Part shown: piece after piece, positions 5,716 through 50,020 of the stretch
Layout of the letters: each line of letters starts with the position of its first letter
Position numbering within the stretch: the stretch's first letter is position 1
Source: Scilla litardierei
Taxonomy: Eukaryota > Streptophyta > Magnoliopsida > Asparagales > Asparagaceae
Assembly: GCA_030789695.1 (NCBI GenBank)
Contig: CM061138.1
Location: 178,580,051 to 178,644,050 of the forward strand
Length of the DNA stretch: 64,000 nt
Reading direction: 5' to 3'
Notes under the pieces: model-generated
Databases searched by the model: none
Told to the model about the DNA's origin: nothing
The model's input: only the letters and a program-made list of their open reading frames with translations
Made by a program: the position numbers and the translations under genes

Positions 5716-5851
5716 TTCGCTTCTCGGCGGCCAAACGCCTAAGGGTGGCGTTAATCTCTGGATCGAGGGGAATCAAGTCGTCAAGACTCCTTGAACTCCT
5801 GCGCATGAAAAACAACAGACACCCGTGAAGCGACAAGTGGGAAAGAAACAT
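5716..5851 (-). pseudogene. Gag-like N-terminal remnant in a different frame from pol
   Basis: This minus-strand frame begins near the PBS and contains [20 protein letters not shown], resembling the start of Athila gag proteins. It is offset by one base from the pol frame (5851-5715 is 136 nt), so a frameshift joins or breaks them near 5715. Most of gag and all of protease appear to be deleted between this remnant and reverse transcriptase. The family assignment of this short piece is an inference. Confidence 0.45.
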
Positions 5852-5983
5852 ATAAAATAAGAAATAAAAATAAGAAAAACAAATAAGAAAAAGAAAAAGG
5901 GGAGAATGCGAAAATTATCGCGAGGTAGGGATGTGAGCTAGACACGAGGGTTCAAGAGATCCTAAAATATCAAGCACGTTGCC

Positions 5984-6001
5984 TCCCCGGCAACGGCGCC
6001 A
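5984..6001 (-). other. Primer-binding site, tRNA-Asp
   Basis: The minus strand reads TGGCGCCGTTGCCGGGGA, complementary to the 3' end of plant tRNA-Asp including CCA. This is the known primer of Athila-group elements. It lies 6 nt from the inner LTR end at 6008, so it fixes both orientation and LTR boundary. Confidence 0.9.
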
Positions 6002-6930
6002 TAAACTTGACCGGCGCCCCGCTTGCATCGCGGCGGCGCGGTGTCGTTTACCGCAAGTTTCACGGTTAGTGTAGGGTGCGGGAATATCGAACTCAGGGAG
6101 GCGAGGTTGTGCTTGGGTCAGGTAGGACCTAAATCACCCCGAGGGGTGAGCTAGCCCGAATCGGCGGATGGTTGTCACGAAAGGGAATAAAAGCGTAAGA
6201 ACGAAAAGAAAGTAAACCCGGGACTTTGGTTTCCAACCCGACGAGAGACTCTCGTCGATACGGCCTACGGGTATGGATAGCGATCGGGATTAGGGTCTAA
6301 TGGTGAGACGTTGCCTCCGAAAGTGGGACCGGCGTCCCATGGGCCCGATATTCCGGTCGGTGCCCAGGATGATACACCGGACTTCCCGGATTCGATCAGT
6401 GGGCACTCCCGTGTCCATTAACACTGATCGATCCCGGGAGCACTAAGTCCGCAACGATATCTCCCAACGTCTCATCCTGCCGCTCCCGCGTGCTAGGATT
6501 TGGCGTCTACGCTAAAGGCGTGAGCTATGGCTAGGGAGTCAACCGCCAAGTTTATTCCCCCTTGGCCCGACGGTCAAAGGCGGTCTTTTTCCCGCCGATG
6601 ACATTGAAACGCCCCGCGTAACCGTTAGATTCCTACTCCCTATCGATTTCCTAACCCTATGGACGCATCAGGAAGAGCCCCCGAAGGGGTTTCCTCCAAA
6701 ATCCCAGATTTGGGAACTACTCACAAAAATTCATGAAAAAGCAATCTAAATGAAATTTAACCGTTGAAATCATAATCGGACAATTGCAATGCGGAAGTAA
6801 AGGAGTAATAAAGATAATACTAAAATTTTAGAAAGATCTGAAAACTTACAAAAGAGTAACAATTACAGCCGTCACAAGGAAATAAAACAGTAGAAAAACA
6901 GCAACTCCCGTTTCTGGAACCCTAGGGGCT

Positions 6931-6940
6931 CTATATATAG
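6931..6940 (-). promoter_or_regulatory. TATA box of the Athila LTR
   Basis: CTATATATAG lies about 10 bp downstream, on the minus strand, of the last palindrome of the 6951-7321 array. It is the only strong TATA motif in the LTR. Confidence 0.65.
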
Positions 6941-6950
6941 GCCGTCGCAT

Positions 6951-7321
6951 CAACCGATCGGTTGACAAGTCAACCGATCGGTTGATCCGTTACAAATAAA
7001 TATCAGAAAACGGCGAGTTTTCACCCGATCACATGAACCGATCGGGTGAGTTCTTGAGCGACCGGTTGGATCTTGGAGCGGTCGGGTGAATCGGTCGGTT
7101 GAATCGTCCGTGTCTTCAGCTCATCTTCTTCAGCTACAGATGAACCGATCGGGTGAGAGTCACCCGATCGGTTGGAATTTTGCTCGAGAAAACAGAGAAC
7201 AGCCGCCCGCAGAACCGGTCTGTGAACCGGTCGGGTGACTTCTTTGTGAGCTGCGGTAGCGACCGGTTGGTGCACGCGTGCATCACCCGATCGGTTGGAG
7301 ATGACGAACCGACCGGGTGAG
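6951..7321. repeat. CCGATCGG palindrome array in Athila U3
   Basis: It contains at least six exact CCGATCGG palindromes flanked by CAACC/GGTTG or CACC/GGGTG, with variants ACCGGTCGG, GACCGGTTGG and ACCGACCGGG between them. This matches the array at 1639-1992 in motif and in placement before a TATA box. The near-palindromic units could form cruciforms or bind dimeric proteins; neither is shown. Confidence 0.8.
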
Positions 7322-7566
7322 GGGCTGAAAGATGAATACTTCGCCGTTTGACCCCCTGGATCACGCGTGACTTCTCCCGTTGCTCCGGGGACTTGGGATA
7401 TCATCATTAAACGTCCCATACGTGGTCAATCCCCTGCAATCATGGACAAACAAAGAAAAGTGAAAGAAAACGGGAAAACATACGAAAACGAATAAGAGAC
7501 GGCGGAGAAACACGGAGAAACACAAAAGAAAATATGCGTGAATATATGAAATATAGACGCACGTCA

Positions 7567-11703: not shown

Positions 11704-12090
11704 TTAGTCGGTTTCAGTTCAACCACCAACCGACTAGATGTTCATCTAGTCGGTTAGTAGAAGAACTTAGACCGACTAACTCAAGCTTTTTGAGTTTCCT
11801 CTTCATTTTAACTCTTTAGTCGGTTCATGTTCAGTGACCGACCGACTAGATTGAGATCTAGTCGATCAGTAAATGAACGCAGACCGACTAAATCTTGTCA
11901 ATAAATCTTGGTTTCAGCCACTGTTTGCAACTAGTCGGTTCAAGCTCATTGACCAACCGACTAGATCGTGATCTAGTCGGTCAGTGCTTGAACTGTGACC
12001 GACTAGTTGTGCCAGGGACTGTTTGGTCATTTGCGATCTTAACCGACTTAAACTCAGTTTAGTCGGTTTGTTTTCATTCTAATCGGTTCA
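11704..12090. repeat. CTAGTCGGT/ACCGACTAG inverted-motif array before the Sirevirus A 3' ORF
   Basis: About three full units plus a partial one. Each alternates TAGTCGGTT/C and GACCGACTAG with hairpin loops of 8-10 bp. I count about 13 intact ACCGAC/GTCGGT cores. It is the counterpart of 37098-37462 in B and lies between pol and the 3' ORF. It is followed by a C/T-rich leader with repeated CTAGGGTTT motifs (12091-12345) and no clear TATA box. Confidence 0.8.
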
Positions 12091-13658: not shown

Positions 13659-16600
13659 TGTAACGCCCCGCTTCCCAAAGACACCGGAAGCGAGAGCGTT
13701 ACACGGCCCGCTTGAACTGGAGCGGTGAAGCTCAAGTCCAATAAGCGTCTGTGATAAAAACACAGAAGAGGTCCTTGCATTTGCGTATCAGAACAATCAG
13801 AAATATTTCAGAAAAATAAAGCCACAACCAGAGTTAAATAGTTCGTACATGAAATTAATCAACAAGCCTCAGCAGGGCCAAAAAGAAGACTACAACAAAA
13901 CACTAATCCTACTACAAGGTACTAAAACTAAAACTCAGAGTAGTGGCGGAAAGGGGCTCTAGCCTTCCGCAGAAGCGGCTCGGCGTCTACGGCGAACCCT
14001 GGCCCTCTAAGTCAGGCGTCTCGAGCGAATCTTCCTAGTGCTCAAACTCGGGATCTAACATACATCCAAAAACATGAATGTATGTCAGCAAGGTCTGCAA
14101 GAAAAGATTAGTATCCCAAGGCAAGATATACAACTGATATGAATTTAAGAAGCATTTAATAATTTAAAGAAACGACTGCAGCAATTTAACATTTAACAAT
14201 TTATAGAAATGGAAACGAGCATTCCTAACATGCAGTTCTAGACGGTTGCAAGATTAAAGTTAGGATGTCTCTGAGTTCATTAGCATTTCAATTATCAAGA
14301 TGACCAAGTTAGCATTGCAAGTTTTCATGTCAAGAATTCACATCTAATCTAGGGTTCTCGTCTTTAGGTCGTGATGAGAAGGTCGTTCCTCTCACGGGGG
14401 CTTACCGTGATTGACACTAACCCACCGCATCGGGTGGTGCTCTTGAGGAGAGTACCTTTCATATGCCCAATGGCCGCTCAACCCTAACCCCACCCAAAAG
14501 TTTTTGCCGGAACACGAGCCAGCCTAGTCGACTCACACGACATCACGAAAGTCACGAATTCGCCTTCGAGGCGCACGATTTCACGATGTCCATATTGTTA
14601 ATCATGTCAAGACTCACTGAATTTCATTGTTGACCATATTAAAGTTTTATGGTGACAGTTCTGCAAAGCGGAAACGGGTCAAACGACCGTTTCCGTAATT
14701 TCAAATAATGACGATTACGTCCTTTTTGTTCAACTTGCTACAGAAACAATTTCTTTCTCTAGTTGTTTAAATTGGGGATATATCGTATGATATACCGTTG
14801 AATCCCAATTTTCGTCCTAATCATTATGGTGTCACTTTCCTACGTTATTTCACGTCTATTTTTGAGTTACAGAGCAAAACATGAAGGCGGCGTAAACGTG
14901 CCGAAACTTCTAAAATTCATAACAAATCATATACTTGCCTGTTTTTGGCGTTCTTGGTGTCGTTGGATTCGTCTCGACGAGTACTATGATGTGGAGGGTT
15001 TGGTTCGCTGTTTTGGCAGAGCACAAAATCAGAAATCACGTTTCTTGTTCAGGACAGATTTACAAAAAGCCCCTACGACGTCTAGCGATTTGTTTTTATT
15101 AGGTTTTCTGTCTTATGATGGGGGTTAAGAGTTGTTAAAGGGGTAGATCTACTAACCGTAAGTGCAGAGGAGGATCGGAACGTCCCGATGGTAGTGGCGA
15201 CGCATCGGGTCCCGGAACAGCGGCGTCTGGAGATTGTCGACGGTCTGCAGTCAGCGAGGGGAGGTCGACAGCAACTGAAAATCGTTCGGAGGCTGTCTGC
15301 AGGCTGGGGAGATCGATGCGGTCCGTTTTGTGGCACTGTCGGCGTGTGGATGAGAGGGGAAGACCGTCGGGTTCGCGTGTGCAGCTCTCGGGGTTTCTCG
15401 CAAAGAGGAAGGTAGAGCGAGGGGAGATGAACGGTGGTTGCGGCCTCCGCGAGTGGGGTTGCTCGGAGAGGAGGCTGGCGTTGTTGCATGAAGAAGAAAG
15501 TTGGGGGTTGCGGATCTGGGGAGAGGAGAAGAGGAGGAGGAGGCCGGGGAGAAGAGCTTGGGAGGGCTACGGGTTGGTTGCAGTTTGTGGAGGCGCACGG
15601 CGGCGCCGGTGAAGGAGGCCGTCGGGTAGGGCTGTCGTCGCGTGCGAGGGAGATGGCCGCCGGCGTTGCTCGGAGCAAGGTGGTGGTGCACGGTGGAGAT
15701 GATGGCGAGGCTGGTGCTTGGCTTGGGCGGAGGTGACGGATAGGGGCGACAGCTTGCGGACTCTGGGAGGAGAAATGTTAGAGGAGGAGGGTGTTTCGAC
15801 TGGGGGGTTGTGTTGTTGCGCCTGGAAAAAACTAGGGTAGGGAGGCTGACAGCTTTGTTGTAGGGAGAAGCTAAAACCTAGGGTTCTGTTGTGTATAGAT
15901 GCTATAGGGTTTTATTTATAATGTATGTAGGTTATAGGAGCATGTGAGACCTTTAGTTTCTATAGGGTTTTATAAAAACATTGTGAGGGTGATTCACAGC
16001 ACGTGAACAACTCTAGGCCCTAGGTGTTTACCTTCTTATAATAATGATAGGGTGATTCTTGCAAGGACAGCATGTGAGAGCTTCGGGTCTCTTAGGTTTC
16101 AGGTTTCTATTATAATATCATAGTGTGGGGTTGAAAGAATAGCACAGCCCGTGAATAGCCATAGGGTCTAATGTTTCCACTTTATTATTATTATTATATT
16201 ATAAGAAAGCCTCACTCAAGAAACTGTGTGTGAGTACAGGCTGGGTGCGGCCTATGCGAAGGCTAGGGTCTAACACAGAATAAGGAGGTTGTTGTGTTAT
16301 AGGAGCACGTGAGCAAGTCTGTGGGTTCTAAAGCTCTTCTTCCTTTTTTTTACCTACCTACTATAGCAACTTGTGTGTCAGATTTCGGCCAGGGGTAAAT
16401 TCAAAACGTAGGGGGTTTAATGTTAAGTTATAGTAGGGAAGGATTTTGGAATACTATTAATAGGATTTAATAGGTTTGATAATCAATGGATTTAAATCAA
16501 GAGAATTAAGGGTCAATCAATGGGTTTTAAAAGTGTTTTACTCGGAAAATCTCCATTTGAACCTCAAAACATTTAAAAATATTCGAAACCCAAATTTGAA

Positions 16601-16817
16601 TTCTGAAAAAGAAGTTTAACCCATTATATAAAGATATGGAAAATAATTATGTAAGGATTTTATTAGTAGTACTAACAAGTAGGGGAAAAAGGCATGGACA
16701 CGGGCACGGACTCGTGTACGGGACAGAAACGTCTAACTACAAATATTGAGGGAAAAAAAATAATAATAATAAACGAGAGAATACATATAATATAATTGAT
16801 GAAAACCGGTCGTTACA
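13659..16817 (-). repeat. Element C, LTR copy 1 (3' LTR of C1)
   Basis: 3159 bp, TGTAACG (13659) to CGTTACA (16811-16817). It is nearly identical to LTR copy 2 at 19584-22737. Orientation is minus because the purine-rich tract lies just beyond 16817. It contains a TATA-like ATTATAAATA (minus, ~15922-15913) and, downstream of that, a GC-rich block (15120-15740) whose minus strand is open but proline-rich, without family likeness. No structural gene is present. Confidence 0.88.
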
Positions 16818-16856
16818 TCCTACCCACCTTAAAAACGATTCCGTCCTCGGAATCGT
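16818..16856 (-). other. Polypurine tract and adjacent hairpin of element C1
   Basis: The minus strand reads TAAGGTGGGTAGGA directly before TGTAACG, a polypurine tract. Next to it (16835-16856) is a perfect 9-bp stem (ACGATTCCG pairs with CGGAATCGT) with loop TCCT on the plus strand. The same structure occurs at 22738-22776. Element N has a different stem sequence with the same loop. Confidence 0.7.
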
Positions 16857-19583
16857 ATTGGCTAAGGTATCGGGAAAACGTAAGGGTAACGCTCGCATCC
16901 CCTCTTCTAACGTATACGTACCATAGATAACCATCATGCCATATCCAAATAATATTTCTAATACTAACATTAATACTAGAAGTATCACCACTGATAATAC
17001 AAATCAACGTTCATGCTAATAGTACGTTTATTATAACAACATACGTACACACATTACCAAGTACATATTAACATAGTACGTTTATTATAATATCACCCTA
17101 CAAATACAATCCAAATCAATACTACATCTGACGAATAGTAATATTCAACCACACAACCACATCAATTCACTAGCTGTAAGTGTGCTAACACCTTACACAC
17201 TTATGTCATACTAACACACAATATATTACCATATATCTTATACACTCACGATCTATAAAGATATAATACCACAAGTCATCCAGACATACCACTAACATAT
17301 AAATACAACCATTCTTAGTCAATTTAACGCTTCTATCGTACAACCACTTTTCCATACCACATACTACCATATTCACATTACAATGAAATCACTTCACGGA
17401 TATATATGCACGTAATATCTTACACCATTCACAGATTTATACATGCTTTACTCATAGTACTAGGGTCATCGTAATCTACCCACCTTAAGATCAAGTCCGT
17501 CCTCAGACTTCCTTAAATAGGTTGACCTATGGTGAGTGGACTTAGACAATAAGCTCGTTCTACCCAAGTTTTGCATACATTATAATGAGACAAAATACGT
17601 CCATATATACGTAGTCACAAACATACGTTTATGCATACCTCCTGGTATACACACGCTCAGGCATCATCCCATAGGGGTAACACGGTATTATAATCCTACC
17701 ACACATAAAACACACTTACTCATACAATGTTTATATATACCTCTAACTAACCACATACACATATACACACGAGCACACGCCAGTCGTACTAACATATAGA
17801 TCACATGATAATCTGCACACAACTACACATACACCTATTATCATAACACTTAACATGCGCATCACGGTATTAATATATAATTACAACCATCAACAAGTAC
17901 GACAAAGGTATATATACTCCTAATAACTAGCCAAAACCAAATCAATCACGCTCAGGTATTCCTATAGTGATATAGCTAATCGCTTGCCTAAGTATAAATA
18001 TACGCTTACTAATCTATACTCAACTATATACATATACATCACAAATTACCACACATGCACATATGACACAATAGATAATCACACCATACTAGCATATTAA
18101 AGGCAAACACACTTATACATAACGGGTACTTAGAGATTCCCACAAACAGGTCCACACCCACTATCCATATACATATATCATAACCACACTACAATCCATG
18201 CTAACGGTCTCACTAAGCAATGATAAGCACTATTGTGGTAACTAAGTAATAGGGTAGGATTCAGAGTTGAATGAGGCAACGAGTTACTGTTGCGATGGAC
18301 GGTTCCGAAGGTGATATGGTTAAGAGATTAGTTTGGTTGGGTGACATAAAATATTTAAGAGTAATTGAATGGTTAAGATGATAAGGATATGTGTAAAATA
18401 ACATCGTAAAATAGTGAACATATGAAATAAGTTAAAATGTAAAACGTGATTAGTCGAATAATGAGTGAAGAGTAATATGGGCCTAGCGATGCAGTGCTTG
18501 TTTTGCAAATGGAAAATAGGTTTGTAATAAAATTTTTTTTGAAGTTCTCTTTAACTTAGGAAAGTATTTTAAAAGTATGTATCAATGATCGTTTCGAAAT
18601 ACATTAGTAAGGGAGGAGGTGACATTTAAACTAGCGACTTAGAAATAAAGTTTTAAAAGTTCGTTGTCTGAGGAAAATAGAGCAGTTATGTGAATTAGAA
18701 GTACGAAAGATGTATGAGAGGAAATCGTTATAAGATAGTAGTTAAAGATTGCATCAAAAGAGTTTCATAATCAAGTTTGGGTTTAAGTCGACTGAAGTGT
18801 AGAGAATTTAAGTGAAATTTTCGAAAGAATTTAAACATAGCGAAGAATTCAAATAATGAAATATCGAAAACACTTTTGGAAGTCCCGGGATCTGCAATGG
18901 GGAGGTTCAAGGTTAAAGATGGCGGATCTGAAGAGTTTATGTGAATCGAGGACAAGGATCAGGTTCGACGATTGAAACGTAAGTACGATTAAGAAGTACT
19001 CCGTGAATACGCTACGATGGCTTCCTACGATCATTAACACAGAAGTGTATAGATCGAAAAGGTAAAATCAGGGGAAAAATAATCATTGATCGACTAGGGT
19101 TTAGCACTAAGGTTCGTCAAAGAAATAGACTGTGATAGGGAAGCCGAGGTGGTGGTTCATAGAGGATCAAGGTCGGAATCTTATGGGTCTGGGATGTCTT
19201 ACGTCTCGAAGTCTTCTCATTGCAGGTGTCTCAGGTTCGACATGGCTTGGCGACAATCGCTACGCTTGGTTGGGCCCTAGACCCGAGGAACCTAAGTGGA
19301 CGACCAACGAAACTCAAGAATCTAGTAAGGTCAGAGCTGGATGATTCAGTCGATAGGGTGACTCCTAAGGTGATAATACTAAGTCGTGGCAAAGGTGTCA
19401 ACTAGCGAGCACGAGTGTCTAACTATTCCTATTATCCTGGTATTGGGTTTCCTATCGTGCTGAGACTAGGCATTTGAGTAATTTTGCATACGAACTAATT
19501 CTGGATGTCTTGGCTAATGAAAAATGTTCTCATTGTTCTGAATTTCGCAGTTTGCAAGACCTGCATGGGCCACCACTAAAACC
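16857..19583 (-). mobile_element. Element C1 internal region, non-coding
   Basis: About 2.7 kb of AT-rich sequence with no ORF of retrotransposon type, so C is a LARD-like non-autonomous element with very long LTRs. The conserved stretch next to the 5' LTR (19566-19583) is shared with N. A second, degraded copy of the polypurine/hairpin signature is at 17475-17510. The remainder shows short A/T and CA-rich runs only. Confidence 0.75.
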
Positions 19584-22737: not shown

Positions 22738-23162
22738 TCCTACCCACCTTAAAAACGATTCCGTCCTCGGAATCGTATTGGCTAAGGCATCGGGAAAACG
22801 TAAGGGTAACGCTCGCATCCCCTCTTCTAACGTATACGTACCATAGATAACCATCATGCCATATCCAAATAATATTTCTAATACTAACATTAATACTAGA
22901 AGTATCACCACTGATAATACAAATCAACGTTCACGCTAATAGTACGTTTATTATAACAACATACGTACACACATTACCAAGTACATATTAACATAGTACG
23001 TTTATTATAATATCACCCTACAAATACAATCCAAATCAATACTACATCTGACGAATAGTAATATTCTACCACACAACCACATCAATTCACTAGCTGTAAG
23101 TGTGCTAACACCTTACACACTTACGTCATACTAACACACAATATATTACCATATATCTTATA
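22738..23162 (-). mobile_element. Element C2 internal region, first part
   Basis: Homologous to 16818-17241. It carries the polypurine tract and hairpin and ends at the TTATA target site (23158-23162) where Sirevirus B is inserted. It resumes at 45037. Confidence 0.85.
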
Positions 23163-23414
23163 TGTAATGCCCTACAAGCTACTGCACAAGTACTAGAGGG
23201 GGGGGTGAATAGTACTTTAAAAATAACAAGGAGTATAATTCCTAATTATAATGCAAACAACTACCAAATCAATTTGCGGAAGCTTAAATTGAATGACAAC
23301 AACAATAATAACAATGCTAACAAGATATGTTACTGGGTTCGGATCCACCCAAGTCTCCCCGACTTGTTCCCGGTGATCCTACGTCCCAACCACCCGGATC
23401 CCCTCCGGATACTT

Positions 23415-25926
23415 TGTCACGCCCCGCTTCCCAAAAATGTGGAGGCGAGACGTGAGAAGGTCCGCACAGACTTAAAGCCGTGAAGCTCCAAGTCTGATAA
23501 GAGTATAAAAAAATCACTTATTATGGCAAGTCCTTGCAAAGTGAAACGACACAACAATGATAATAAGGAATTGAGACGACATTTCATTGAATCTCCAAAT
23601 GTCCATAAACAAATTACAATATCGCAGAAAAGCCACCAGGCTAAAAGAAAAAGGGATCTAAGGCCCAAACATGGCCAACAAAGAATAACTTACATACAAG
23701 GGTGCCTCGCACCAACGACTAACAGCAAACCTAAACAAAGAAGTGAACACGAGCGGTCTTCAAGACAGGCCCCTGGTGTCCACCCACCACCACAGCAAAC
23801 ATCAGCATCAGCAACACAATATCCCCTGCAACAAAGCTCTGGCTCTGGGTCTAACATGTGACACCCAAAAGAGAGAGGGGCACATGTCAGCAAGTCTGGA
23901 AAGACTTGTGCAAGGAAACTGAAAGTAAGGGGAACTAGCAACCTAGCAGTTATAGTAATAAGCAATGACTTGGCAGTTATACATGAGTGCACAATTTAAA
24001 ACATGGCAAGACAATTTGTACAAGAGAACAATTTATTGGGACAAGGCAAGACAAGACAAGAGTAGCCAAGCTACTATCAATCTCAATCAATTCACATTTT
24101 GTAGGTGTTTATGCCCTTCGCTGAATGGCATAGCATATCAGACCGATCGGCACTAAACACATTTCACGTTTCACGGTTGTTTTGTAGATGTTTGCGCCCT
24201 TCGCTGAATGGCTAGCATGTCAGTCCGATCGGCCCCAAACACTACCCCACCCCAAAGAGTTTACGCCTTACAACTGCAGTTGTTGATCAAACAGACTCCC
24301 AGTTGAATGGCCGCTTAACCCTCACCCCTTATACCCACACGTAATGGAGCCTGGGGTCCCCGCACAATGAACTCAGCTAGTGAGCCTGGGGTTGCCCCGC
24401 ACAATGAGCTCGCATTCTTAGTTCACAATTCAATATCGAGCGTTGGGGTTTCCAACTACAGGGCTCGCTTCTGGAACACGAGCCAGGAACACACAAGTAG
24501 TGTAGCAAAGCTACGCAATCACGGGATCACCAAAACAATGCAATGACATGACATTTAATTTGCGTACCATTAATGGAAAGTAAACATGACATGGTAATTG
24601 TGCAACATGCTATATGTCGGAATTAGCTTCGTTGTCAAGCTAACTCCCCAATTTGCGCCTAGGCGAGTATCATTTCGTCGCCTAGTCTCCTTTATGCCTA
24701 CAACAAGAAAATGGCCTAAAACATGGCCTCAACCCTAAGTGGCAAGTTTCACTTGCCTAGCACCGGGAATGACGACCACTTCGTCACACGGATGCTATCT
24801 ACGGGGGAAATCGCTGTTAAGGGGGAAACAAACACCAAACACATGAAATTAATTAGGGTTTCACCAAAATTATCAATAAGTTATGAAAACAACGGTAGAA
24901 CGATTTCTTACCGAGAGGAAGCGGAAGAAACACTCCGGGGAACCCTAGGATCAGATCTGGAGAAGATTGGAGAAGTTTGGGGAAACTAGGGATTTGGGGG
25001 ATTTGGGGATTTGATGGATTTTGGTGAGATTTTGGGGAAGATGAGAGGTAGATAGAGTAGATGGATGGTTTGGATGATGGATTCAGGGCTTGGAATGAAG
25101 GAATGGAGCTTGGAGGAAGATGGGGGCTCAAGGGGGAGATTTTAGGGTTTTGGGTCGTGTTGGAGGAAGAAGAAACGTTTGGGAGGGGTATAAATAGGTT
25201 GGGCTGGCGGCTGCCCAGAAATTAGGGTTTTAACACAGACTAGTCGGTCAAAGAGCAACCACTGACCGACTAGTTTGACAACTAGTCGGTCAGTCGACCA
25301 ACGCAGACCGACTAAGTGCAAATAGTAACTTCTGAACGAAAATAGGATTTAGAGTTAGTCGGTCCATGAACAAATACTGACCGACTAGTTTGGCATCTAG
25401 TCGGTCGATGAACGTTCTTAGACCGACTAAGAATGAACAGTAACTCGGCTGTACAGAAGGACTAGGAATTAGTCGGTCTGAGTACAAAACTTAACCGACT
25501 AGTTTGAAAACTAGTCGGTCGGAAGATAAACTTAGACCGACTAAACAGATACAGTAACTTAGGTAAAATTAATCCAAGGAACCAGTCGGTTTGAGTAGAG
25601 TTGCCGACCGACTAGATCTCAATCTAGTCGGTTGGTTCCCCTTCTCGAACCAACTAAGATGCACTAAAAGTGCCGATTCGAATCGCAGAACTTCGGGAAG
25701 ATTCCTATGGCTTCTAAGATCACTCTAACTCTAAGATATGAGCAAAATGAAGCTCGTCACGAATGACTTACTCCGAAATCGACGAGCGAAGGAAGAAGAT
25801 AGAAAATCACGACGAAACGATCGAAAGTGAAAGCTATGGCGACGAAAACCACACATCCAAGGAGAAAATCCACCAAGCACATATTATAATATAAATAATC
25901 CAATTACACGAAAACCAGTCGTTACA
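23415..25926 (-). repeat. Element N 3' LTR
   Basis: 2512 bp. On the minus strand U3 begins at 25926 and includes the array (25658-25238), then TATTTATA (about 25197-25188). Open frames in 23523-24989 occur identically in both LTRs but show no family likeness, so they are not called as genes. Confidence 0.88.
25238..25658. repeat. CTAGTCGGTC/GACCGACTAG array in element N 3' LTR
   Basis: Four units of about 105 bp, about 15 intact ACCGAC/GTCGGT cores, ending with the same degenerate GAACCAACTAA unit as in the Sirevirus LTR. Homology to Sirevirus U3 continues past the array to about 25770 (shared words include CTTCGGGAAG and AAGATATGAGC). Confidence 0.88.
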
Positions 25927-28900
25927 TCCTACCCACCTTAGAATAAAGTCCGTCCTCGGACTTTCTAACTATAGCTATATCTAGTCACCCTAGTAACTAC
26001 CCTCAATCAATATCACATCAAAATTTCAACCAAGTACATTCATTTCAAGTGCTTATATATACATGTACTCTAGGTAGTCAATTATTAACACCACGGGAGC
26101 AAATATATATTCACGCACACAGTACACTTATACTTATTGTAATCAAACAACTCCATTCACGTATTCAAATCATTCATATAGGCAAGTATATTCCATATAA
26201 CTATAAAACACTTATTACACACTATATGAAAATAACCAAGTCTCTTACTTATTTGAAAATAATTTCACACTAGAAAATACCATCGGATTCTACACGTATA
26301 AGTAACTACCTATGGACAAGATATCGAGAATACACTAGTCCCTATATCTCCTAGTATGCGCCAAACAATCAACATGCGAAATCACACCATACGATTGTTA
26401 AAACAAGTTCACTATATCTATCTTACATTCACCATCATTATAATTTCACAATTTATAGTCATTCAAATGCATGCACACATTTCACCATATCATCACTCCA
26501 TATATAGTCCTATAGCTATAATCACGACACACCATACATACCATAGTCACCAATTCCTATAACTATCACATACTTACCCGTGCATGGTGCACACACACAC
26601 GCCATTATTTCATTCACATATACACCAATCACACCACTATATGCTTAGCACACCTACGCACCTAGTTTAGCTAGCACACATATATTCACGCAACCAAGTC
26701 CTTAGTGAATAACTATACCACATGACCAACTCACATAACTATATATTGGTATAGCCACCCACAATCGTGTGCGTAACACAACCAGGCACGAACAATCCAA
26801 ACATTATACATATATCATCCATCACTATACACCAACCACATACAATACACCAATGCACATAGAGTGTACCCACTCAAGCTTGAGTGAGACTCAAAATCAT
26901 AGGGGAATAATTCCATATACGTAACGTAGCATCCACACGTATGCCAAAACTAGCTAATGCATACACGTCTACCAACATAACCACATACATATCTAAATGT
27001 CAAACACCCTTAATATCTAACCAGGTAACATCACATATTTCAATCACTTCATATACCATGATATTATTACAAACATCAGCACACCTATAATTACAATACT
27101 CTCCCTAATAAAAGTATTCACCTATAGTCACACCCAAGCATCGTATATATTCATACCATATCCATCCACCTATAATTGGTACATCAATACACATTCACTT
27201 CATACATAAGTTAAGATATGCAGTAGTCGGGTATACCTCATGGTACACATGCATACGACATCTCATAAAAACAATACCAAATCAAACATTATAATCCTAC
27301 TATCATATGTATATCACACTTACACTCATGCAGTTAATACATAACTATCTACACAATATAACAATACCAACCACAAACTACTTCATATGCACCATGAAAT
27401 TAAATACACTACGACGACACATCAAATTACACTAATGGGGCCCACCAAGCTATATTAAGGTCGACACAGCGACGACAAGCTCTATTGGCTAGACAAAAGG
27501 AACGAATTGAAATCAAGAGCGTAACGAATAGAAGGATCGAAAAGCATGAAAACGGTTGTGCAATGATGTAATGATGCTCCATTAGGACACATGGAAAATA
27601 GTGTAAATAACATATTCTAAAATACGAAAAGTTTGAAAACTGTCACACCTCACAGTTGGAGTCCTTTTTCCGTATAAAAATATTTAGGGGTCGACAAAAC
27701 AAATTGTTTGAAATAAGTTTGAGTCGAATATACATAGTAGGAGAAAACGGTTTATTGGCTCACGTAAGGTCATTAAAAGAAAGTGAATCATTCACACGAA
27801 TTTTGAGGTCGTAGTTTTAGAAAATATTATACGGCGGTGATTTAATAATGTTGGCAAAAGTTTTGAAACGAAATTAAATTAACAAAAGAATTTTAAACTC
27901 ATGCCAAATACCTTCAAAGTCTTTAAGCCAAGAAAAGCTCAAATAATCAATATGGAAACTACCTTTTAGTGCAACCAGGATTTGCCAAAAGAAATCGTTT
28001 TACACAAAGCTCTTAACATACGGGCCAATGAGCCTAATGCGGATATAAAAATAATTGAAATTCCATCTAGGTTAGAAATTCTTCTAAGGGCATGTATGGT
28101 GAACGGAAAGATAACTCTAGCTATTAGTAGTATTATCAAAACTTGTAGTGAAACTTTAAAATCAAATTTATGGAGGGTCTAGATCAAAAAGGTTATGAAA
28201 TAATGATTTTTACAAAAACCTGAAATAGGGGAAACGAGGAGCATAACGGTCGTAGTTTTAGTATATAAAAATTAGTTGAAGTTCTACTTTAGAAATCATT
28301 TTTGGAAATATGTATGACGAATGGAAAGATAATAACATCTTAGTGGTATGGAAGTAAGTGGGGGGAAATATATACATATATAGGATTATTAAATTGGTAA
28401 TAAGCTTTAAAACCGAGTTTTGGAGGTCTAAATTAGGAAAGGGTTTCGAAAAGTAATTTTACAAAAAAATCTGATCTAGGGAAAAGTTGAGCATAAAATC
28501 GACTCGTTGGAAGCTGAAGTCCCAAGTGACTTGGAAGGTATGTAAGAAACAAACATGATGCGGTATTCGAATAAGTTTTAATGGCATAAGTAAGGAAAGA
28601 AATTTATAATTCAGGTTAGGAAAAACAAAAGCATGGTTCGGAAGAAAATTGGTATATGAAAAGAGGCAAGTCATTTATATTGATATGAAAATATAGGCTG
28701 AAGAATATTATAAACCAATAATCAAAAATCTCGACAAAAGTTTCAATGTCTAAAAGAACAAATAAATTTAAGTCGCGAAAGAGTACGAAACCTAATATAT
28801 ATATTAAGGGTTCGCGAACAAATTCAAACTTAGCGAAAGAGGAACATCGAAAATACTTTTAGGGGAAACAAGGATTCGCCGCAAGAATAGGTTGGTAAAA

Positions 28901-30028
28901 GACTTGAAGTACGTGTACGACAAACTTGTAATTAGTATATATTCATAAATCAATTGGAGTTCTATTTATCTTGAAAGAAGTATTTTAAAGCACGTATAGT
29001 AAATAGCTAAAATGAATTTCGCAATAGTAGAAAAGGTGGTATATCGAATCATCGAAATAGTAGTAAAGTTTTGAGATCGAGAAGCGAAGATATAGGTTAG
29101 AAAATGGTTTCAAGTTAGTAATTTAAAATTACGGCCAAATAGTTTCTCAAAATCTAAGAATAACTTTTAGCTCAAATGGGAGTAATGGTAATATATTGAA
29201 AGAAGGTTTAAACAAAATTTAAAATCAAGTGGAAACCTTTTTAATAAGGGAAAATTCGAAAATGACCTTGGAAGAATTAAGATTTGCAACGGAAAAGATT
29301 TGAAAGATCAACGATAATAGTAAGGAGGGGATCATGTGAATCGAGGGCAATGAATGTGGTTGTGTGAGGCATGCACCTAAATCACAATGCAAGAAATCCA
29401 TGATGAAGATCTACGGTCAGTAACACCAGAGTGTAGTGACCAGGAAAGGTTGAATCAGGGGGTTCTAATCATCGGGTTAACTAAAGGCCAAGGGATTTGG
29501 TCGGATGATCGAAACATAAATACGCCTAGGTTATGACTTAGGAAAATCTATGGGGAACTCCTACGGTCAACCAGCTAAAGATTATGGAACTAAGCGCTAA
29601 GATTCCCTAAGGGCTAGACAGCGATGAAATGAGTTCAGCTTGGTCTGAAATCGATGAACCCAAGCGAGAGACCAAAGAATTATAGAAGTCTATCCTAGTC
29701 AAAGCTAGACATGAACCACTAAGGTAACTCTTAAGACTATCAAAGAGGTCACTAGCATGGAATCTAGCTAACAATCAAGGAATCCTAACTAGCAAGCACA
29801 GACGTCTATCTAAGTCTAGCTAGGGTCCAGATCTAATGGGTTTCCTACTAAGCAGAGACAGACGCCCTAACACGTCTACCAGCTACTTAAGGCATATGAA
29901 CGCTAAAAACTAGACTCAAGGCTTATAACTTGGATGTTCTAATTCATTTAATGGACATTCTATAATTATTATTGTTGTTCCGATAGTTCGCATTTGCAAA
30001 TGGACCTGCATGGGCCACCACTAAAACC
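25927..30028 (-). mobile_element. Element N internal region, non-coding
   Basis: Begins with the polypurine tract (25927-25940) and the hairpin AAAGTCCG-TCCT-CGGACTTT (25945-25964). The rest is AT-rich and ORF-poor; the longest frames (for example 27982-28182) have no family likeness. It ends with a sequence shared with C directly before the 5' LTR (30011-30028). Confidence 0.8.
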
Positions 30029-32541
30029 TGTCACGCCCCGCTTCCCAAAAATGTGGAGGCGAGACGTGAGAAGGTCCGCACAGACTTAAAGCCGTGAAGC
30101 TCCAAGTCTGATAAGCGTATAAAAAAATCACTTATTATGGCAAGTCCTTGCAAAGCGAAACGAAACAACAATGATAATAAGGAATTGAGACGACATTTCA
30201 TTGAATCTCCAAATGTCCATAAACAAATTACAATATCGCAGAAAAGCCACCAGGCTAAAAGAAAAAGGGATCTAAGGCCCAAACATGGCCAACAAAGAAT
30301 AACTTACATACAATGGTGCCTCGCACCAACGACTAACAGCAAACCTAAACAAAGAAGTGAACACGAGCGGTCTTCAAGACAGGCCCCTGGTGTCCAACCA
30401 CCACCACAGCAAACATCAGCATCAGCAACACAATATCCCCTGCAACAAAGCTCTGGCTCTGGGTCTAACATGTGACACCCAAAAGAGAGAGGGGCACATG
30501 TCAGCAAGTCTGGAAAGACTTGTGCAAGGAAACTGAAAGTAAGGGGAACTAGCAACCTAGCAGTTATAGTAATAAGCAATGACTTGGCAGTTATACATGA
30601 GTGCACAATTTAAAACATGGCAAGACAATTTGTACAAGAGAACAATTTATCGGGACAAGGCAAGACAAGACAAGAGTAGCCAAGCTACTATCAATCTCAA
30701 TCAATTCACATTTTGTAGGTGTTTATGCCCTTCGCTGAATGGCATAGCATATCAGACCGATCGGCACTAAACACATTTCACGTTTCACAGTTGTTTTGTA
30801 GATGTTTGCGCCCTTTGCTGAATGGCTAGCATGTCAGTCCGATCGGCCCCAAACACTACCCCACCCCAAAGAGTTTACGCCTTACAACTGCAGTTGTTGA
30901 TCAAACAGACTCCCAGTTGAATGGCCGCTTAACCCTCACCCCTTATACCCACACGTAATGGAGCCTGGGGTCCCCGCACAATGAACTCAGCTAGTGAGCC
31001 TGGGGTTGCCCCGCACAATGAGCTCGCATTCTTAGTTCACAATTCAATATCGAGCGTTGGGGTTTCCAACTACAGGGCTCGCTTCTGGAACACGAGCCAG
31101 GAACACACAAGTAGTGTAGCAAAGCTACGCAATCACGGGATCACCAAAACAATGCAATGACATGACATTTAATTTGCGTACCGTTAATGGAAAGTAAACA
31201 TGACATGGTAATTGTGCAACATGCTATATGTCGGAATTAGCTTCGTTGTCAAGCTAACTCCCCAATTTGCGCCTAGGCGAGTATCATTTCGTCGCCTAGT
31301 CTCCTTTATGCCTACAACAAGAAAATGGCCTAAAACATGGCCTCAACCCTAAGTGGCAAGTTTCACTTGCCTAGCACCGGGAATGACGACCACTTCGTCA
31401 CACGGATGCTATCTACGGGGGAAATCGCTGTTAAGGGGGAAACAAACACCAAACACATGAAATTAATTAGGGTTTCACCAAAATTATCAATAAGTTATGA
31501 AAACAACGGTAGAACGATTTCTTACCGAGAGGAAGCGGAAGAAACACTCCGAGGAACCCTAGGATCAGATCTGGAGAAGATTGGAGAAGTTTGGGGAAAC
31601 TAGGGTTTTGGGGGATTTGGGGATTTGATGGATTTTGGTGAGATTTTGGGGAAGATGAGAGGTAGATAGAGTAGATGGATGGTTTGGATGATGGATTCAG
31701 GGCTTGGAATGAAGGAATGGAGCTTTGAGGAAGATGGGGGCTCAAGGGGGAAGATTTTAGGGTTTTGGGTCGTGTTGGAGGAAGAAGAAACGTTTGGGAG
31801 GGGTATAAATAGGTTGGGCTGGCGGCTGCCCAGAAATTAGGGTTTTAACACAGACTAGTCGGTCAAAGAGCAACCACTGACCGACTAGTTTGACAACTAG
31901 TCGGTCGGTCGACCAACGCAGACCGACTAAGTGCAAACAGTAACTTCTGAACAAAAATAGGATTTAGAGTTAGTCGGTCCATGAACAAATACTGACCGAC
32001 TAGTTTGGCATCTAGTCGGTCGATGAACGTTCTTAGACCGACTAAGAATGAACAGTAACTCGGCTGTACAGAAGGACTAGGAATTAGTCTGTCTGAGTAC
32101 AAAACTTAACCGACTAGTTTGAAAACTAGTCGGTCGGAAGATGAACTTAGACCGACTAAACAGATACAGTAACTTAGGTAAAATTAATCCAAGGAACCAG
32201 TCGGTTTGAGTAGAGTTGCCGACCGACTAGATCTCAATCTAGTCGGTTGGTTCCCCTTCTCGAACCAACTAAGATGCACTAAAAGTGCCGATTCGAATCG
32301 CAGAACTTCGGGAAGATTCCTATGGCTTCTAAGATCACTCTAACTCTAAGATATGAGCGAAATGAAGCTCGTCACGAATGACTTACTCCGAAATCGACGA
32401 GCGAAGGAAGAAGATAGAAAATCACGACGAAACGATCGAAAGTGAAAGCTATGGCGACGAAAACCACACATCCAAGGAGAAAATCCACCAAGCACATATT
32501 ATAATATAAATAATCCAATTACACGAAAACCAGTCGTTACA
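30029..32541 (-). repeat. Element N 5' LTR
   Basis: 2513 bp, nearly identical to 23415-25926; differences are single bases. It contains the second copy of the motif array (31853-32272) and ends CGTTACA before the target duplication TACTT. Confidence 0.9.
31853..32272. repeat. CTAGTCGGTC/GACCGACTAG array in element N 5' LTR
   Basis: Same four-unit structure as 25238-25658, with a few base changes (for example GTCTGTCT replaces GTCGGTCT near 32090). Confidence 0.88.
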
Positions 32542-33031
32542 TACTTGAGTTAGAAACCCTAACTCAAGATTTCCACTATGAAATACTTGTGAAAATCCTC
32601 CACAAGTCAAATCATACAAAATGTAATTTGTGACTCCCACAACCCGGGATCACAACCACACTCTCACAACCGAGAGTGAAACTTACAAATCAAATATGAA
32701 ATGAAATAAGAAAACTTCTTACCGAACAAAATACCTATGCCTTGAGTATTGCTTACGAATTAGGGCAAGGATGATTTTGGGGGAAGAAGTGGCACCAAAC
32801 CCTAGCTCTAAGATGTAGATCAGCGATGGAGAGCTTTGGGGATGTTGGTGACCTAGAATCAAGCACTTGGCTTGGAAGGCTTCACACTCAATGAATCTCT
32901 CTTTGGAAGTAAGAGTGAGGAGAGATTATTGAATGGAATGAATGAGCTTTGAATGCACTTGGAATGATTTCTCTGGATCTCTAAACTTGTAATAATATCA
33001 GCCTTGGCAGCAATGAATGCAGCCCATCAAG

Positions 33032-33105: not shown

Positions 33106-33770
33106 AACTAGTCGGTCAAAGAACAACCACCGACCGACTAGTTCATCAACTAGTCGGTCGGTCAATTAACGTGAACCGACTAATGAGTAAACAGAGAAAA
33201 GATCAAAGTACAGACTAAGGAACTAGTCGGTCTAAGAAGAGTAGCTGACCGACTAGTTTCACAACTAGTCGGTCGGTTACTCAACGTGGACCGACTAACA
33301 GATAAAACTGAAGTCTGAGAAGAATTAGATTTAGTCGGTCCAAGAACAAATGTTGACCGACTAATTCACCAACTAGTCGGTCACCAAATGAACATAGACC
33401 GACTAACAATAAACAGTAAGTATGGTGAAAATTTTGGCATGTACAGTAAACTAAACTAGTCGGTCTAAGAAGAAAAGTTGACCGACTAGTTCATCAACTA
33501 GTCGGTCGATCAAAGAGCACAGACCGACTAATGATAAACAGTAGCTCAAGCTCAAATGTGCATGAAGAGGGAAAGCTCAACTAGTCGGTCACAGAAGCAT
33601 CACAGACCGACTAGTTTACAAACTAGTCGGTCGGTGAGTCAACTTAGACCGACTAACTGTAAACAGTAAAGAGCTATGAATTAACTGAGAAGAACTAGTC
33701 GGTCCAAGAAGCTTGGCTGACCGACTAGATCACCATCTAGTCGGTCAGTTCTTCTTCTTGAACCAACTAA
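33106..33770. repeat. Inverted-motif array, Sirevirus B 3' LTR
   Basis: Six tandem units of roughly 105-125 bp, nearly identical to 43969-44633. Confidence 0.9.
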
Positions 33771-37097: not shown

Positions 37098-37462
37098 GAC
37101 CGACTAAACTGAGTTTAAGTCGGTCGAGATCGCAAATGACCAAACAGTCCCTGGCACAACTAGTCGGTCACAGTTCAAGCACTGACCGACTAAATCACGA
37201 TCTAGTCGGTCGGTCAATGAGCTTGAACCGACTAGTTGTAAACAGTGGCTGAATCCAAGATTAACTGACAAGATTTAGTCGGTCTGTGTTCATTTACTGA
37301 CCGACTAGATATCAATCTAGTCGGTTGGTCACTGAACATGAACCGACTAAAGAGTCAAAAAGAAGAGGAAACTCAAAAAGCTTGAGTTAGTCGGTCTAAG
37401 TTCTTCTACTAACCGACTAGATGAACATCTAGTCGGTTGGTGGTTGAACTGAAACCGACTAA
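37098..37462. repeat. Inverted-motif array before the Sirevirus B 3' ORF
   Basis: Counterpart of 11704-12090 in A: three-plus units of TAGTCGGTC/T and GACCGACTAG. The leader with CTAGGGTT motifs lies between it and the ATG at 36809. Bases 37463-37706, between array and pol, hold nothing recognised. Confidence 0.8.
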
Positions 37463-43968: not shown

Positions 43969-44633
43969 AACTAGTCGGTCAAAGAACAACCACCGACCGA
44001 CTAGTTCATCAACTAGTCGGTCGGTCAATTAACGTGAACCGACTAATGAGTAAACAGAGAAAAGATCAAAGTACAGACTAAGGAACTAGTCGGTCTAAGA
44101 AGAGTAGCTGACCGACTAGTTTCACAACTAGTCGGTCGGTTACTCAACGTGGACCGACTAACAGATAAAACTGAAGTCTGAGAAGAATTAGATTTAGTCG
44201 GTCCAAGAACAAATGTTGACCGACTAATTCACCAACTAGTCGGTCACCAAATGAACATAGACCGACTAACAATAAACAGTAAGTATGGTGAAAAATTTGG
44301 CATGTACAGTAAACTAAACTAGTCGGTCTAAGAAGAAAAGTTGACCGACTAGTTCATCAACTAGTCGGTCGATCAAAGAGCACAGACCGACTAATGATAA
44401 ATAGTAGCTCATGCTCAAATGTGCATGAAGAGGGAAAGCTCAACTAGTCGGTCACAGAAGCATCACAGACCGACTAGTTTACAAACTAGTCGGTCGGTGA
44501 GTCAACTTAGACCGACTAACTGTAGACAGTAAAGAGCTATGAATTAACTGAGAAGAACTAGTCGGTCCAAGAAGCTTGGCTGACCGACTAGATCACCATC
44601 TAGTCGGTCAGTTCTTCTTCTTGAACCAACTAA
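43969..44633. repeat. Six-unit inverted-motif array, Sirevirus B 5' LTR
   Basis: Each unit is CTAGTCGGTC, 15-20 nt, GACCGACTAG, an 8-10 nt loop, CTAGTCGGTC, 15-20 nt, GACCGACTAA, then a 25-50 nt spacer. I count 23 intact motif copies and one degenerate copy (GAACCAACTAA) at the upstream edge. The inner pair of each unit can form a hairpin with a stem of about 10-13 bp. ACCGAC is the DRE/CRT core bound by DREB/CBF factors (established knowledge); binding here is inference. Confidence 0.92.
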
Positions 44634-46296: not shown

Positions 46297-48169
46297 TGTT
46301 GGATATTGGACTCCCCGGATTTGGTTTTGGATGATGAACAAACATAAATATAATATGAACTAACACTTTGTGAGCGCAGTTATGGAGATCGTCGCCAAAT
46401 TCACATGAATATTAATTACGACGTCTCAAGACTTCTCAAAGCACGTGATCGTATGCCTAAAGCTTCGTTGAAGCTTATGGACCAATGTAGAAGTCATGAA
46501 GATACGATTGAAGCTATTGAAGACGGTATCGTCAAGTTTTATTTATTGTCTTTAGCTTCTTTCGTAGAATGTTAAGCCTTGAGTAGGTCTTACGTTTCAA
46601 ATCTTCATAACGCTCATATCTTAGCTCTAGGATCTTAATAGAAGTCCATACAATCCTTCCCGAAGCATCGCGCTTCGATTCGCGACTTCTTGTGCATGTT
46701 AGTTGGTTCAAGAAGAAGAACTGACCGACTAGATGGTGATCTAGTCGGTCAGCCAAGCTTCTTGGACCGACTAGTTCTTCTCAGTTAATTCATAGCTCTT
46801 CACTGTTTACAGTTAGTCGGTCTAAGTTGACTCACCGACCGACTAGTTTGTGAACTAGTCGGTCAGTGATGCTTCTGTGACCGACTAGTTGAGCTTTCCC
46901 TGTACATGCACATTTGAGCTTGAGCTACTGTTTATCATTAGTCGGTCTGTGCTCATTGATCGACCGACTAGTTGATGAACTAGTCAGTCAACTTTCCTTC
47001 TTAGACCGACTAGTTTAGTTTACTGTACATGCCAAATTTTTCACCATACTTCCAGTTTATTGTTAGTCGGTCTATGTTCATTTGGTGACCGACTAGTTGG
47101 TGAATTAGTTGGTCAACATTTGTTCTTGGACCGACTAAGTCTAATTCTTCTCAGACTTCAGTTTTATCTGTTAGTCGGTCCACGTTGAGTAACCAACCGA
47201 CTAGTTGTGAAACTAGTCAGTCAGCTACTCTTCTTAGACCGACTAGTTCCTTAGTCTGTACTTTGATCTTTTCTCAGTTTACTCATTAGTCGGTTTACGT
47301 TAATTGACCGACCGACTAGTTGATGAACTAGTCGGTCGGTGGTTGTTCTTTGACCGACTAGTTGGGTTCAGAAAAGAGCCGTTGGAGCTTTAATTGAAAC
47401 GTTTTTCTCTCTCTCTCTCCTCTATCCTATATATACTTGATGGGCTGCATTCATTGCTGCCAAGGCTGGTATTATTGCAAGTTTAGAGATCAAGAGAATT
47501 CATTCCAAGCTCATTTAAAAGCTCATTCTTTCCATTCAATAATCTCTCCTCACTCTTACTTCCAAAGAGAGATTCATTGAGTGTGAAGCCTTCCAAGCCA
47601 AGTGCTTGATTCTAGGTCACCAACATCCCCAAAGCTCTCCATCGCTGATCTACATCTTGGAGCTAGGGTTTGGTGCCACTTCTTCCCCAAAATCATCCTT
47701 GCCCTAATTCGTAAGCAATACTCAAGGCATAGGTATTTTGTTCGGTAAGAAGTTTTCTTATTTCATTTCATATTTAATTTGTAAGTTTCACTGTCGGTTG
47801 TGAGAGTGTGGTTGTGATCCCGGGTTGTGGGAGTCACAAATTACATTTTGTATGATTTGACTTGTGGAGGATTTTCACAAGTATTTCATAGTGGAAATCT
47901 TGAGTTAGGGTTTCTAACTCAAGTATCCGGAGGGGATCCGGGTGGTTGGGACGTAGGATCACCGGGAACAAGTCGGGGAGACTTGGGTGGATCCGAACCC
48001 AGTAACATCTCTTGTTAGCATTGTTAATTTTGTTGTTGTCATTCAATTTAAGCTTCCGCAAATTGATTTGGTAGTTGTTTGCATTATAATTAGGAATTAT
48101 ACTCCTTGTTATTTTTAAAGTACTATTCACCCCACTTAGTACTTGTGCAGTAGCTTGTAGGGCATTACA
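46297..48169 (+). repeat. Sirevirus A 3' LTR
   Basis: TGTTGGATATTGG to GGCATTACA. U3 holds the inverted-motif array (46699-47364), then a CT microsatellite and TATA (CCTATATATA, 47427-47436). The C-run near the U5 end is only 4 long, against 7-11 in other copies. Confidence 0.9.
46699..47364. repeat. Inverted-motif array, Sirevirus A 3' LTR
   Basis: Six units in reverse orientation to those of B. Several motifs are degraded (for example CTAGTCAGTC), consistent with A being older than B. Confidence 0.88.
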
Positions 48170-48267: not shown

Positions 48268-50020
48268 TGTAATGCCCTACAAGCTACTGCACAAGTACTA
48301 GAGGGGGGGTGAATAGTACTTTAAAAATAACAAGGAGTATAATTCCTAATTATAGTGCAAACAACTACCAAATCAATTTGCGGAAGCTTAAATTGAATGA
48401 CAACAACAAAATTAACAATGCTAACAAAAGATTTTACTGGGTTCGGATCCACCCAAGTCTCTCCGACTTGTTCCCAGTGATCCTACGTCCCAACCACCCG
48501 GATCCCCTCCGGATACTTAGGTTAGAAACCCTAACCCAAGATTTCCACTATGCTATCTTGTGAAAAACCTTCACAAGATCGAATCATACATGCAATGGCA
48601 ATAGTGAATCCCACAACCCGGGATCACAACCTTCTCTCACAACCGAGAGAATCAACAAGCAATATAAACAAGTTTATAATGAAATAAACATTCTTACCAC
48701 AAAATCCTATACCTTGAGTTTTCTTACCAAATAGGTGCAAGGAGGGATTTGAGGAAGATGAAGTCTCCAAGACCTAGCACCAAAGAAATGACCAGCAAAG
48801 GGTGCCTAGGAGTGATTTGGAGACTTGAATCAAGCTAGAGCTTGAAGGGCTCACCAAGAACAAACTTCTCTCAAGATGGATTCTAGATCTAGAAAGTGAG
48901 AGAATGGATTTCTTGTGAGGAAGAGAGCTTTAGAAATGAGTGAGAATAGCTATCTCTTTCAATCTCAATGAATCTCTTAATGGCAGCTCTAACCTAGAGA
49001 GAAATGACCTAGGTTCGTATTTATAGGGTCCCATAAAAACAAGTTAGGTCAATTCCCAACGGATAGAAATCTGAGGCAACTAGTCGGTCAAAGAACAACC
49101 ACTGACCGACTAGTTCATCAACTAGTCGGTCAGTCAAACAACATGGACCGACTAAGTGAAGAACTGAGAAAAGATAGAAATTCAGACCTAGAAATCTAGT
49201 CGGTCAAAGAAGACTTTCTGACCGACTAGTTTCACAACTAGTCGGTCAGTCAGTGAACGTAGACCGACTAAGAGGCAAAAGCAAATAGTCTGAATACAAA
49301 TTGACTTAGTCGGTCCAAGAACAAATGTTGACCGACTAGATTATCAACTAGTCGGTCACCAAACGTTCTTAGACTGACTAACGATAAACAGTAGCTTAGG
49401 AGAAATTTGGCATGTACAGTAAATCACAACTAGTCGGTCAAAGAAGCATCACTGACCGACTAGTTCACAAACTAGTCGGTCGGTGAGTCAACGTAGACCG
49501 ACTAACTGTAAACAGTACTGAACAGGAAAAGATTAACTCAAACTAGTCGGTCCAAGAAGCTCTGCTGACCGACTAGATCACCATCTAGTCGGTCAGTACT
49601 TCTTCTTGTACCAACTAACATGCACAAACAAGTCCGAATCGAAGCGCGATGCTTCGAGGAAGTTAGAATGGACTTGAACTAAGATCCTAGAGCTACGATA
49701 TGAGCGTTATGAAGATAGAATCGTAAGATATACTCAAGGCTTAACATTCTATAGATCGAAGCTAAAAGACTATAAATAAAACCTTAATGAATGGTCTTCG
49801 AGAGCTTCGATCAATTCTTCATGACTTCCAACACGGTCCAAAGGCTTCAACGAAGCTTTATGCAATGAATACGAGCTTTGAGAAGTCTTGAGATGTCGCT
49901 TTGATTGTTCTCGTGAATATGGCGACGATCTCCAATACGGCGCTCACAAAGTGTTAGTTCATAAATTATTTATGTTTGCTCATCATCCAAAACCAAATCC
50001 GGGGAGTCCAATATTCAACA
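48268..50020 (-). repeat. Sirevirus E 5' LTR
   Basis: 1753 bp, TGTAATGCCC to CAATATTCAACA on the plus strand. It is more divergent from B and A than they are from each other, mainly in R/U5 (48570-49030). It has a five-unit array (49079-49619) and TATA at 49028-49017 (CCCTATAAATAC on minus). Predicted target duplication agcta at 50021-50025. Confidence 0.88.
49079..49619. repeat. Inverted-motif array, Sirevirus E LTR
   Basis: Five units with about 18 intact motifs, although the R/U5 next to it has diverged. The motifs are better conserved than the spacers. Confidence 0.88.

Follow-up and report, generated by a model that had tools for sequence, protein, structure and literature searches.

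The window, 64 kb in length, consists mostly of nested plant LTR elements. The Sirevirus S2 spans positions 23163-45035 on the minus strand, with the target duplication TTATA, and codes for a copia gag, an RVT_2 pol and a third ORF with PF20167. Its primer site (TGGTATCAGAGC, at 43143) adjoins the right LTR and recurs in the Sirevirus S3; we take this site to be of the initiator-Met type, typical of Sirevirus. Inserted in the left LTR of S2 is a second element, N, whose own LTRs lie at 23415..25926 (left; the 3' LTR in sense) and 30029..32541 (right; the 5' LTR in sense), both on the minus strand. They have the ends TGTCACG...CGTTACA, and a TACTT target duplication flanks them (23410-23414 and 32542-32546). 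Both these features and the LTR limits were taken directly from the sequence, and the BLAST ends were trimmed by a few bases. Because the two LTRs differ at just 19 of 2517 aligned bases (99.2% identity; a few bases beyond the LTR ends are included in the count), we consider this copy of N to be young.

The primer binding site of N (30003..30020, minus strand) begins eight bases inside from the right LTR, and its 18 bases are complementary to the 3' end of a tRNA gene, tRNA-Ile(AAT). The corresponding tRNA pattern has seven sites in the genome, and ARAGORN called the one examined tRNA-Ile(AAT). A polypurine-like tract (AAGGTGGGTAGGA in sense; 25927..25939, minus strand) adjoins the left LTR. 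N reads on the minus strand, since its primer site is at the right LTR and the tract at the opposite end; S2 reads in the same direction. With N fixed as a minus-strand element by its primer site, we abandoned a reading in which a TATAAATA on the plus strand at 25189 preceded the array described below. The longest stop-to-stop frame in the interior of N (25927-30028) is 108 amino acids. We take a LARD to be a large non-autonomous LTR element, with LTRs and an interior of several kb that is non-coding; N, with its non-coding interior and LTRs of 2.5 kb, has these properties.

The U3 of both N LTRs contains a palindromic array of four units, at 25241..25656 in the left LTR (unit starts 25241, 25356, 25470 and 25583) and at 31856..32271 in the right, both on the minus strand. 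The unit is 74 bases long and consists of four TAGTCGGTC-type arms of alternating strand at offsets 0/23/42/65. Arm spacing within units (23/19/23) is invariant, and the spacers between units vary. A four-arm template, allowing up to 8 mismatches in the 36 arm bases, detected 37 units in the window: eight in N, six in the left LTR of S2 (33109..33769, minus strand), six in its right LTR (43972..44632, minus strand), six in the Sirevirus LTR S4 (46700..47360, plus strand), five in the S3 LTR (49081..49617, minus strand) and 3 + 3 in Sirevirus interiors. With this template no unit was found elsewhere in the window, and none in 20 mononucleotide shuffles of one strand. The interior units, at 11705-12005 and 37161-37461, precede the third ORF (PF20167) by 200-320 bases, a placement like that reported for RM boxes ahead of env-like genes. 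The direct arms are 42 bp apart, or about four DNA turns, in all units of the window (for example, 25241-25314).

A TATA-like box (TATTTATA in sense; 25189..25196, minus strand) is positioned 44 bp downstream of the left array. Such a box (TATAAATA, TATTTATA or TATTTAAA) starts 44-48 bp after the array in 21/21 N-type arrays examined, and 55-69 bp after it in 4/4 Sirevirus LTRs examined. The orientation of the array relative to transcription is equal in N and S2, and N and the Sireviruses have it in the same orientation and position, just upstream of the TATA-like box. No similarity between N and the Sireviruses was visible in the stretch between array and TATA box or in the last ~120 columns of the U3 tip; the U3 tip and core promoter of N appear to be its own.

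Sirevirus LTRs are known to contain many palindromic CGG/CCG copies, termed RM boxes, shortly before the TATA box, and RM boxes also occur upstream of the Sirevirus env-like gene (Bousios 2010; PMC2829016). The Sirevirus arrays of the window, with many palindromic CGG/CCG boxes per LTR before the TATA box, are of this known kind. The array of N lies outside that description: it differs in that the boxes occur also in a Ty3/gypsy lineage and are arranged in a higher-order four-arm unit of fixed spacing. The same paper calls the RM motif Sirevirus-specific within its Ty1/copia dataset, a view that our observations bring into question. RM boxes in the U3 ahead of a TATA-like box are the Sirevirus trait that N possesses. 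In place of the Sirevirus-type primer site it has the 18 bases matching tRNA-Ile(AAT), and instead of the RVT_2 pol and copia gag of Sireviruses it has no frame above 108 amino acids, while the coding relatives that were scanned have RVT_1. The claim of the earlier note that N has ends unlike those of Sireviruses held, and extends to the primer site.

Detailed comparison of the units indicated that the likeness between N and the Sireviruses goes beyond the arms. In N, S2 and S4 the odd fourth arm of the edge unit reads AACCAACTA; S3 has TACCAACTA there. The edge unit of N best matches Sirevirus edge units (loop identity 0.59 and 0.62), and its TATA-proximal unit best matches the TATA-proximal unit of S3 (0.74) and S2 (0.68), against 0.27 for shuffled loops. 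The third unit is nearest to the third unit of S3 (0.74), and loop comparison gave no clear Sirevirus partner for the second. An arm-free U3 flank of N (25657..25803, minus strand; the tip-side end is approximate) also matches Sirevirus U3, both pairwise and as a profile. Pairwise local scores of 53-67 compare with shuffle maxima of 33-36 (1000 dinucleotide shuffles in each of three comparisons). A profile built from 20 N-type arm-free flanks matched Sirevirus U3 over ~147 columns (model columns 2 to 147-150) in the four sequences tried, with E values of 1.5e-19 for S2, 3.3e-19 for S4, 1.9e-18 for one LTR of locus L025 and 2.4e-10 for S3. The best of 100 mononucleotide shuffles reached E 7.9, and the LTR of the sister element C was matched at its own tip only (E 0.42).

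Judged on these alignments, the array and flank of N are homologous to Sirevirus U3. The earlier note had reported four Sirevirus-type units with a shared edge unit in both N LTRs, followed by about 110 bp of further homology. All of this was borne out, and the flanking homology, which includes CTTCGGGAAG and AAGATATGAGC, proved to be longer than claimed. The note had placed the module at 25238..25770; the location is correct, and the homology breakpoints of the N-Sirevirus alignment put its extent at ~25234 on the TATA side to ~25800 on the tip side. Convergent expansion of a simple palindromic motif has virtually no chance of accounting for such a match. RM motif cores are similar among unrelated Sireviruses (PMC2829016), as convergence might predict, but the invariant 23/19/23 spacing, the matching edge units and the homology of a flank without arms all argue against it, and the gap between the profile E values and the best shuffle led us to exclude it.

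The array is absent from the LTR of C (13659..16817, minus strand), which has its ends, tract and primer site in common with N; the primer site was found as a 19-base tRNA-Ile match at the second C LTR. The last LTR bases of N and the start of its interior match C at these coordinates, which therefore mark the true LTR; the limits given earlier needed correction, and 13659-17242 corresponds to a longer BLAST repeat. As the earlier note had stated, no array unit was found in the C LTR with the four-arm template; the LTR has one RCCGAC and no ACCGAC. C is a tandem of LTR-interior-LTR-interior that was later split by S2 (16818-19583, 22738-23162 and 45036-45895). Beyond it, the inverted LTR S4 abuts an S3 interior fragment (45895-48300). 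The S4 interior is cut off at 45895 against C, indicating that a deletion or rearrangement occurred.

To place N and C in a wider context, the 3.68 Gb genome was searched for the junction of tract and LTR end that the two elements share. This junction has 3063 exact sites genome-wide (reversed control, 0). We took the 30 sites that come first in chromosome order, which all fall on contig C1, regardless of array. All 18 sites with an N-type tip (ACCA or ACCC) have the array, with 3-5 units each. None of the 12 sites with a C-type tip (ACCG) has it, and no arm with up to 1 mismatch was found within 1500 bases on their U3 side; these 12 sites represent about seven places, as seven of them fall in two tandem sets. 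The arm of the array edge lies 245-275 bases away from this lineage's LTR end at no fewer than 2454 sites, counting all tip types together (reversed control, 0), and the primer-site junction has 9795 sites genome-wide. Array-less C-type junctions recur at even steps of ~5.8 kb (five sites, C1:30661363-30684529; L055-L058) and of ~4.4 kb (three sites, C1:17100172-17108924; L038-L040), which suggests tandem arrays of whole elements.

The module was 95-98% identical in 20 loci elsewhere, a sample picked by module similarity. Recent local gene conversion from the host Sirevirus was considered and rejected, given that loci elsewhere share the module at this level and that N is only ~70% like its neighbours.

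Reading on into the interior from L036 and L042, each an N-type locus of five units, led to coding interiors in the stretches L060 and L061, respectively. In L061, a Ty3-type gag, protease, RVT_1, RNase H, the integrase zinc finger H2C2 and SH3_Tf2-1 scored above the Pfam cut-offs. The rve domain (19.9 bits against a cut-off of 32.6) and a chromodomain, PF00385, at 8908-9414 (22.7 bits against 25.1) fell below theirs. The locus runs from an interior (554 to ~5380) through a six-unit LTR and part of a second interior to the LTR of L042 with its five units; the array of its 5' LTR is outside the stretch read. The LTR of N is 71-78% identical, in pieces, to that of L061, and the first 118 interior bases of N on the primer side are 77% identical. 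L060 has protease, RVT_1, RNase H and H2C2, with gag absent from the frames scanned, and its coding interior adjoins the five-unit LTR of L036. These observations show that a Ty3/gypsy lineage shares the promoter array with Ty1/copia Sireviruses. The gypsy affinity of N suggested by the earlier note thereby gains support through a coding relative, and the lineage is probably a chromovirus. Non-coding N is most likely a member of it that inherited the array.

The idea that N alone gained the module, put forward in the earlier note, was rejected, because the array is present in 18/18 N-type ends examined, two of which adjoin coding gypsy interiors. Nor is the proposal that a non-autonomous element borrows the regulatory input of an unrelated autonomous one supported as it was stated, since the array is common first to N's own lineage.

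The LTR on the other side of the L060 interior (4247-7478) starts like that of N, ends in a tip of the ACCG type (7462-7478) and gives way to N-like interior. No array arm was found in this stretch, and its middle part had no match among the other sequences compared. The presence of an array-less LTR beside a coding interior indicates that U3s with and without the array are mixed in the lineage, even around one interior, and it is possible that this LTR reflects a U3 swap.

The history of the array was approached through a tree of its individual units. One group unites the edge units from 19 N-type arrays with those from two Sirevirus LTR arrays, the N-type units sharing a branch; the 19 N-type arrays also have their TATA-proximal units in one group, beside Sirevirus units. 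The tree was midpoint-rooted and read without regard to branch supports, and it covers the 18 array sites except L041 and L050. This grouping fits a single block transfer that preceded the divergence of the N-type subfamilies. We favour, with a probability of about 0.68, the reading that the promoter array was transferred as a block from a Sirevirus to the gypsy lineage and that N is a non-coding derivative that inherited it. The ~147-base flank and the array, starting from a Ty1/copia Sirevirus, would have entered a Ty3/gypsy lineage (probably of chromoviruses) together, in a single old event before most present gypsy subfamilies arose; the module would then have been carried by coding members and inherited by non-coding N. 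The route may have been template switching between RNAs packaged together, or recombination of DNA where insertions are nested.

The lack of the array in C makes a gain plausible, with a polarity that is unrooted: the comparison covered just two families of Sirevirus LTRs, and a loss of the array from C-type LTRs is conceivable. Transfer may have run the other way, the gypsy lineage having had the array first and the Sirevirus of this plant lineage having taken it in place of an older RM type. The want of a root leaves room for this, and loops vary more within the gypsy lineage (identity down to 0.56) than between the two Sirevirus families (0.84). We nonetheless think this direction distinctly unlikely, because RM boxes with CGG-CCG cores are described for grass, grape and citrus Sireviruses, where they also precede env (PMC2829016), because Sirevirus interiors here have the four-arm unit upstream of the third ORF, and because the array is missing from C-type LTRs, whose ends and primer site mark them as near relatives of N.

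Certain observations point to exchange after the initial event. Locus L029 combines N-like units with an edge unit like that of L030. The TATA-proximal unit of N is nearer to Sireviruses (loops 0.68-0.74) than to five of its own kind (0.47-0.65), although the tree keeps it with its own kind. Together with the mixed U3s around L060, these features suggest that the module may have been exchanged repeatedly, with later uptake of Sirevirus units by N-type arrays, U3 swaps within the gypsy lineage, a common array and a shared host factor. We regard such a history as tentative and unlikely. Were it true, two superfamilies would be evolving one promoter array, and competing for, or riding on, the same host factor. 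Within L029 (794-1210), the second unit shows no difference from the third in either arms or loops, which implies a recent unit duplication, and the edge unit resembles that of another subfamily.

We next considered what the array may do. Over the 171 pairs of 19 N-type arrays, identity was 0.979 in the 8-base arm cores, 0.735 in the loops, 0.831 in the flank and 0.793 on the TATA side. The sample was N (N5) and the 18 junction sites, with the first and last unit of each array compared; the high module identity of the 20 similarity-picked loci was left out of this evidence. The arms are constrained, as their cores are 98% identical between copies against 74% for the loops. CpG in methylated repeats should decay faster, and the arms contain CpG, which makes their conservation more telling. 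Variation within the arms peaks at the ninth base, outside ACCGAC, with 23% non-consensus against 0-6% at other positions; this count covers 52 distinct N-type units of the window and of loci selected for their similarity to N. In 403 bases of the N array (25238-25640) there are 16 RCCGAC, 15 of them ACCGAC, whereas shuffles contain a mean of 0.24 RCCGAC. We take ACCGAC to be the DRE/CRT core. From the motif content, we infer that a host factor may bind the arms and would then drive transcription from the TATA box; the ACCGAC present in each arm makes a DREB/ERF-type protein a possible candidate.

The DRE-like arm cores also invite the idea that both lineages independently captured one host promoter piece, which would explain the shared block without contact between the elements. 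Such a double capture is improbable in our view: gypsy and Sirevirus flanks are 0.73-0.89 identical over 71 bases (without gapped columns; 12 of 35 rows), about as high as S2 and S3 (0.87), and a tandem array with a specialised edge unit resembles the Sirevirus RM array.

Alternatively, instead of providing factor binding sites, the array could be kept as RNA or DNA hairpins, acting in small RNA production, as a silencing or nucleosome signal or in RNA packaging. RNA of the N array folds at -167.5 kcal/mol, far better than shuffles (z -11.2; 0/100 as good), and palindromes of maize Sirevirus LTRs are small-RNA hotspots (PMC5311732). Good folding, however, is expected of any inverted-repeat array. 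The concentration of arm changes at position 9, outside ACCGAC, in N-type units from the similarity-picked loci, and the constant position just upstream of the TATA-like box also speak against it, and we consider the hairpin explanation unlikely.

LTR promoters are usually thought to evolve within families, and here a cis-regulatory block is common to two superfamilies. In the gypsy elements it fills the U3 as far as the bases of their own terminus, and its thousands of copies look as if selection maintains them. Regulatory switches may therefore be able to pass from one transposable element to an unrelated one and then be retained by selection. The situation is akin to a natural promoter-swap experiment, with one array, a different core promoter and a different element, and makes it testable whether one signal wakes unrelated elements of one genome.

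Searches of the open-access literature found no report of the array in gypsy elements and no relevant papers on copia-gypsy chimeras or tRNA-Ile primer sites, and the array and tRNA patterns had no match in IMG/VR. Partial parallels do exist. In wheat centromeres, the autonomous and non-autonomous gypsy partners Cereba and Quinta share ends, primer site and regulatory motifs of the LTR (PMC11302176), but within one lineage, whereas the module described here also matches a different superfamily. For ONSEN of Arabidopsis, LTR elements are described as recombining with one another during transposition bursts (PMC5668417), a possible route for the present case; that recombination is within one family, and ours would be between superfamilies. 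Cassandra is a non-autonomous LTR element with a foreign promoter in its LTR (PMC10853983), the source being the host 5S rRNA gene and not, as here, another retrotransposon.

Finally, we observed a perfect short hairpin beside the polypurine-like tract of N (25945-25964; AAAGTCCG-TCCT-CGGACTTT) and of C (16835-16856; ACGATTCCG-TCCT-CGGAATCGT), with AATTCCG-AGGA-CGGAATT in sense in L061. The stem differs on both sides across N, C and L061, indicating that the pairing has been kept.
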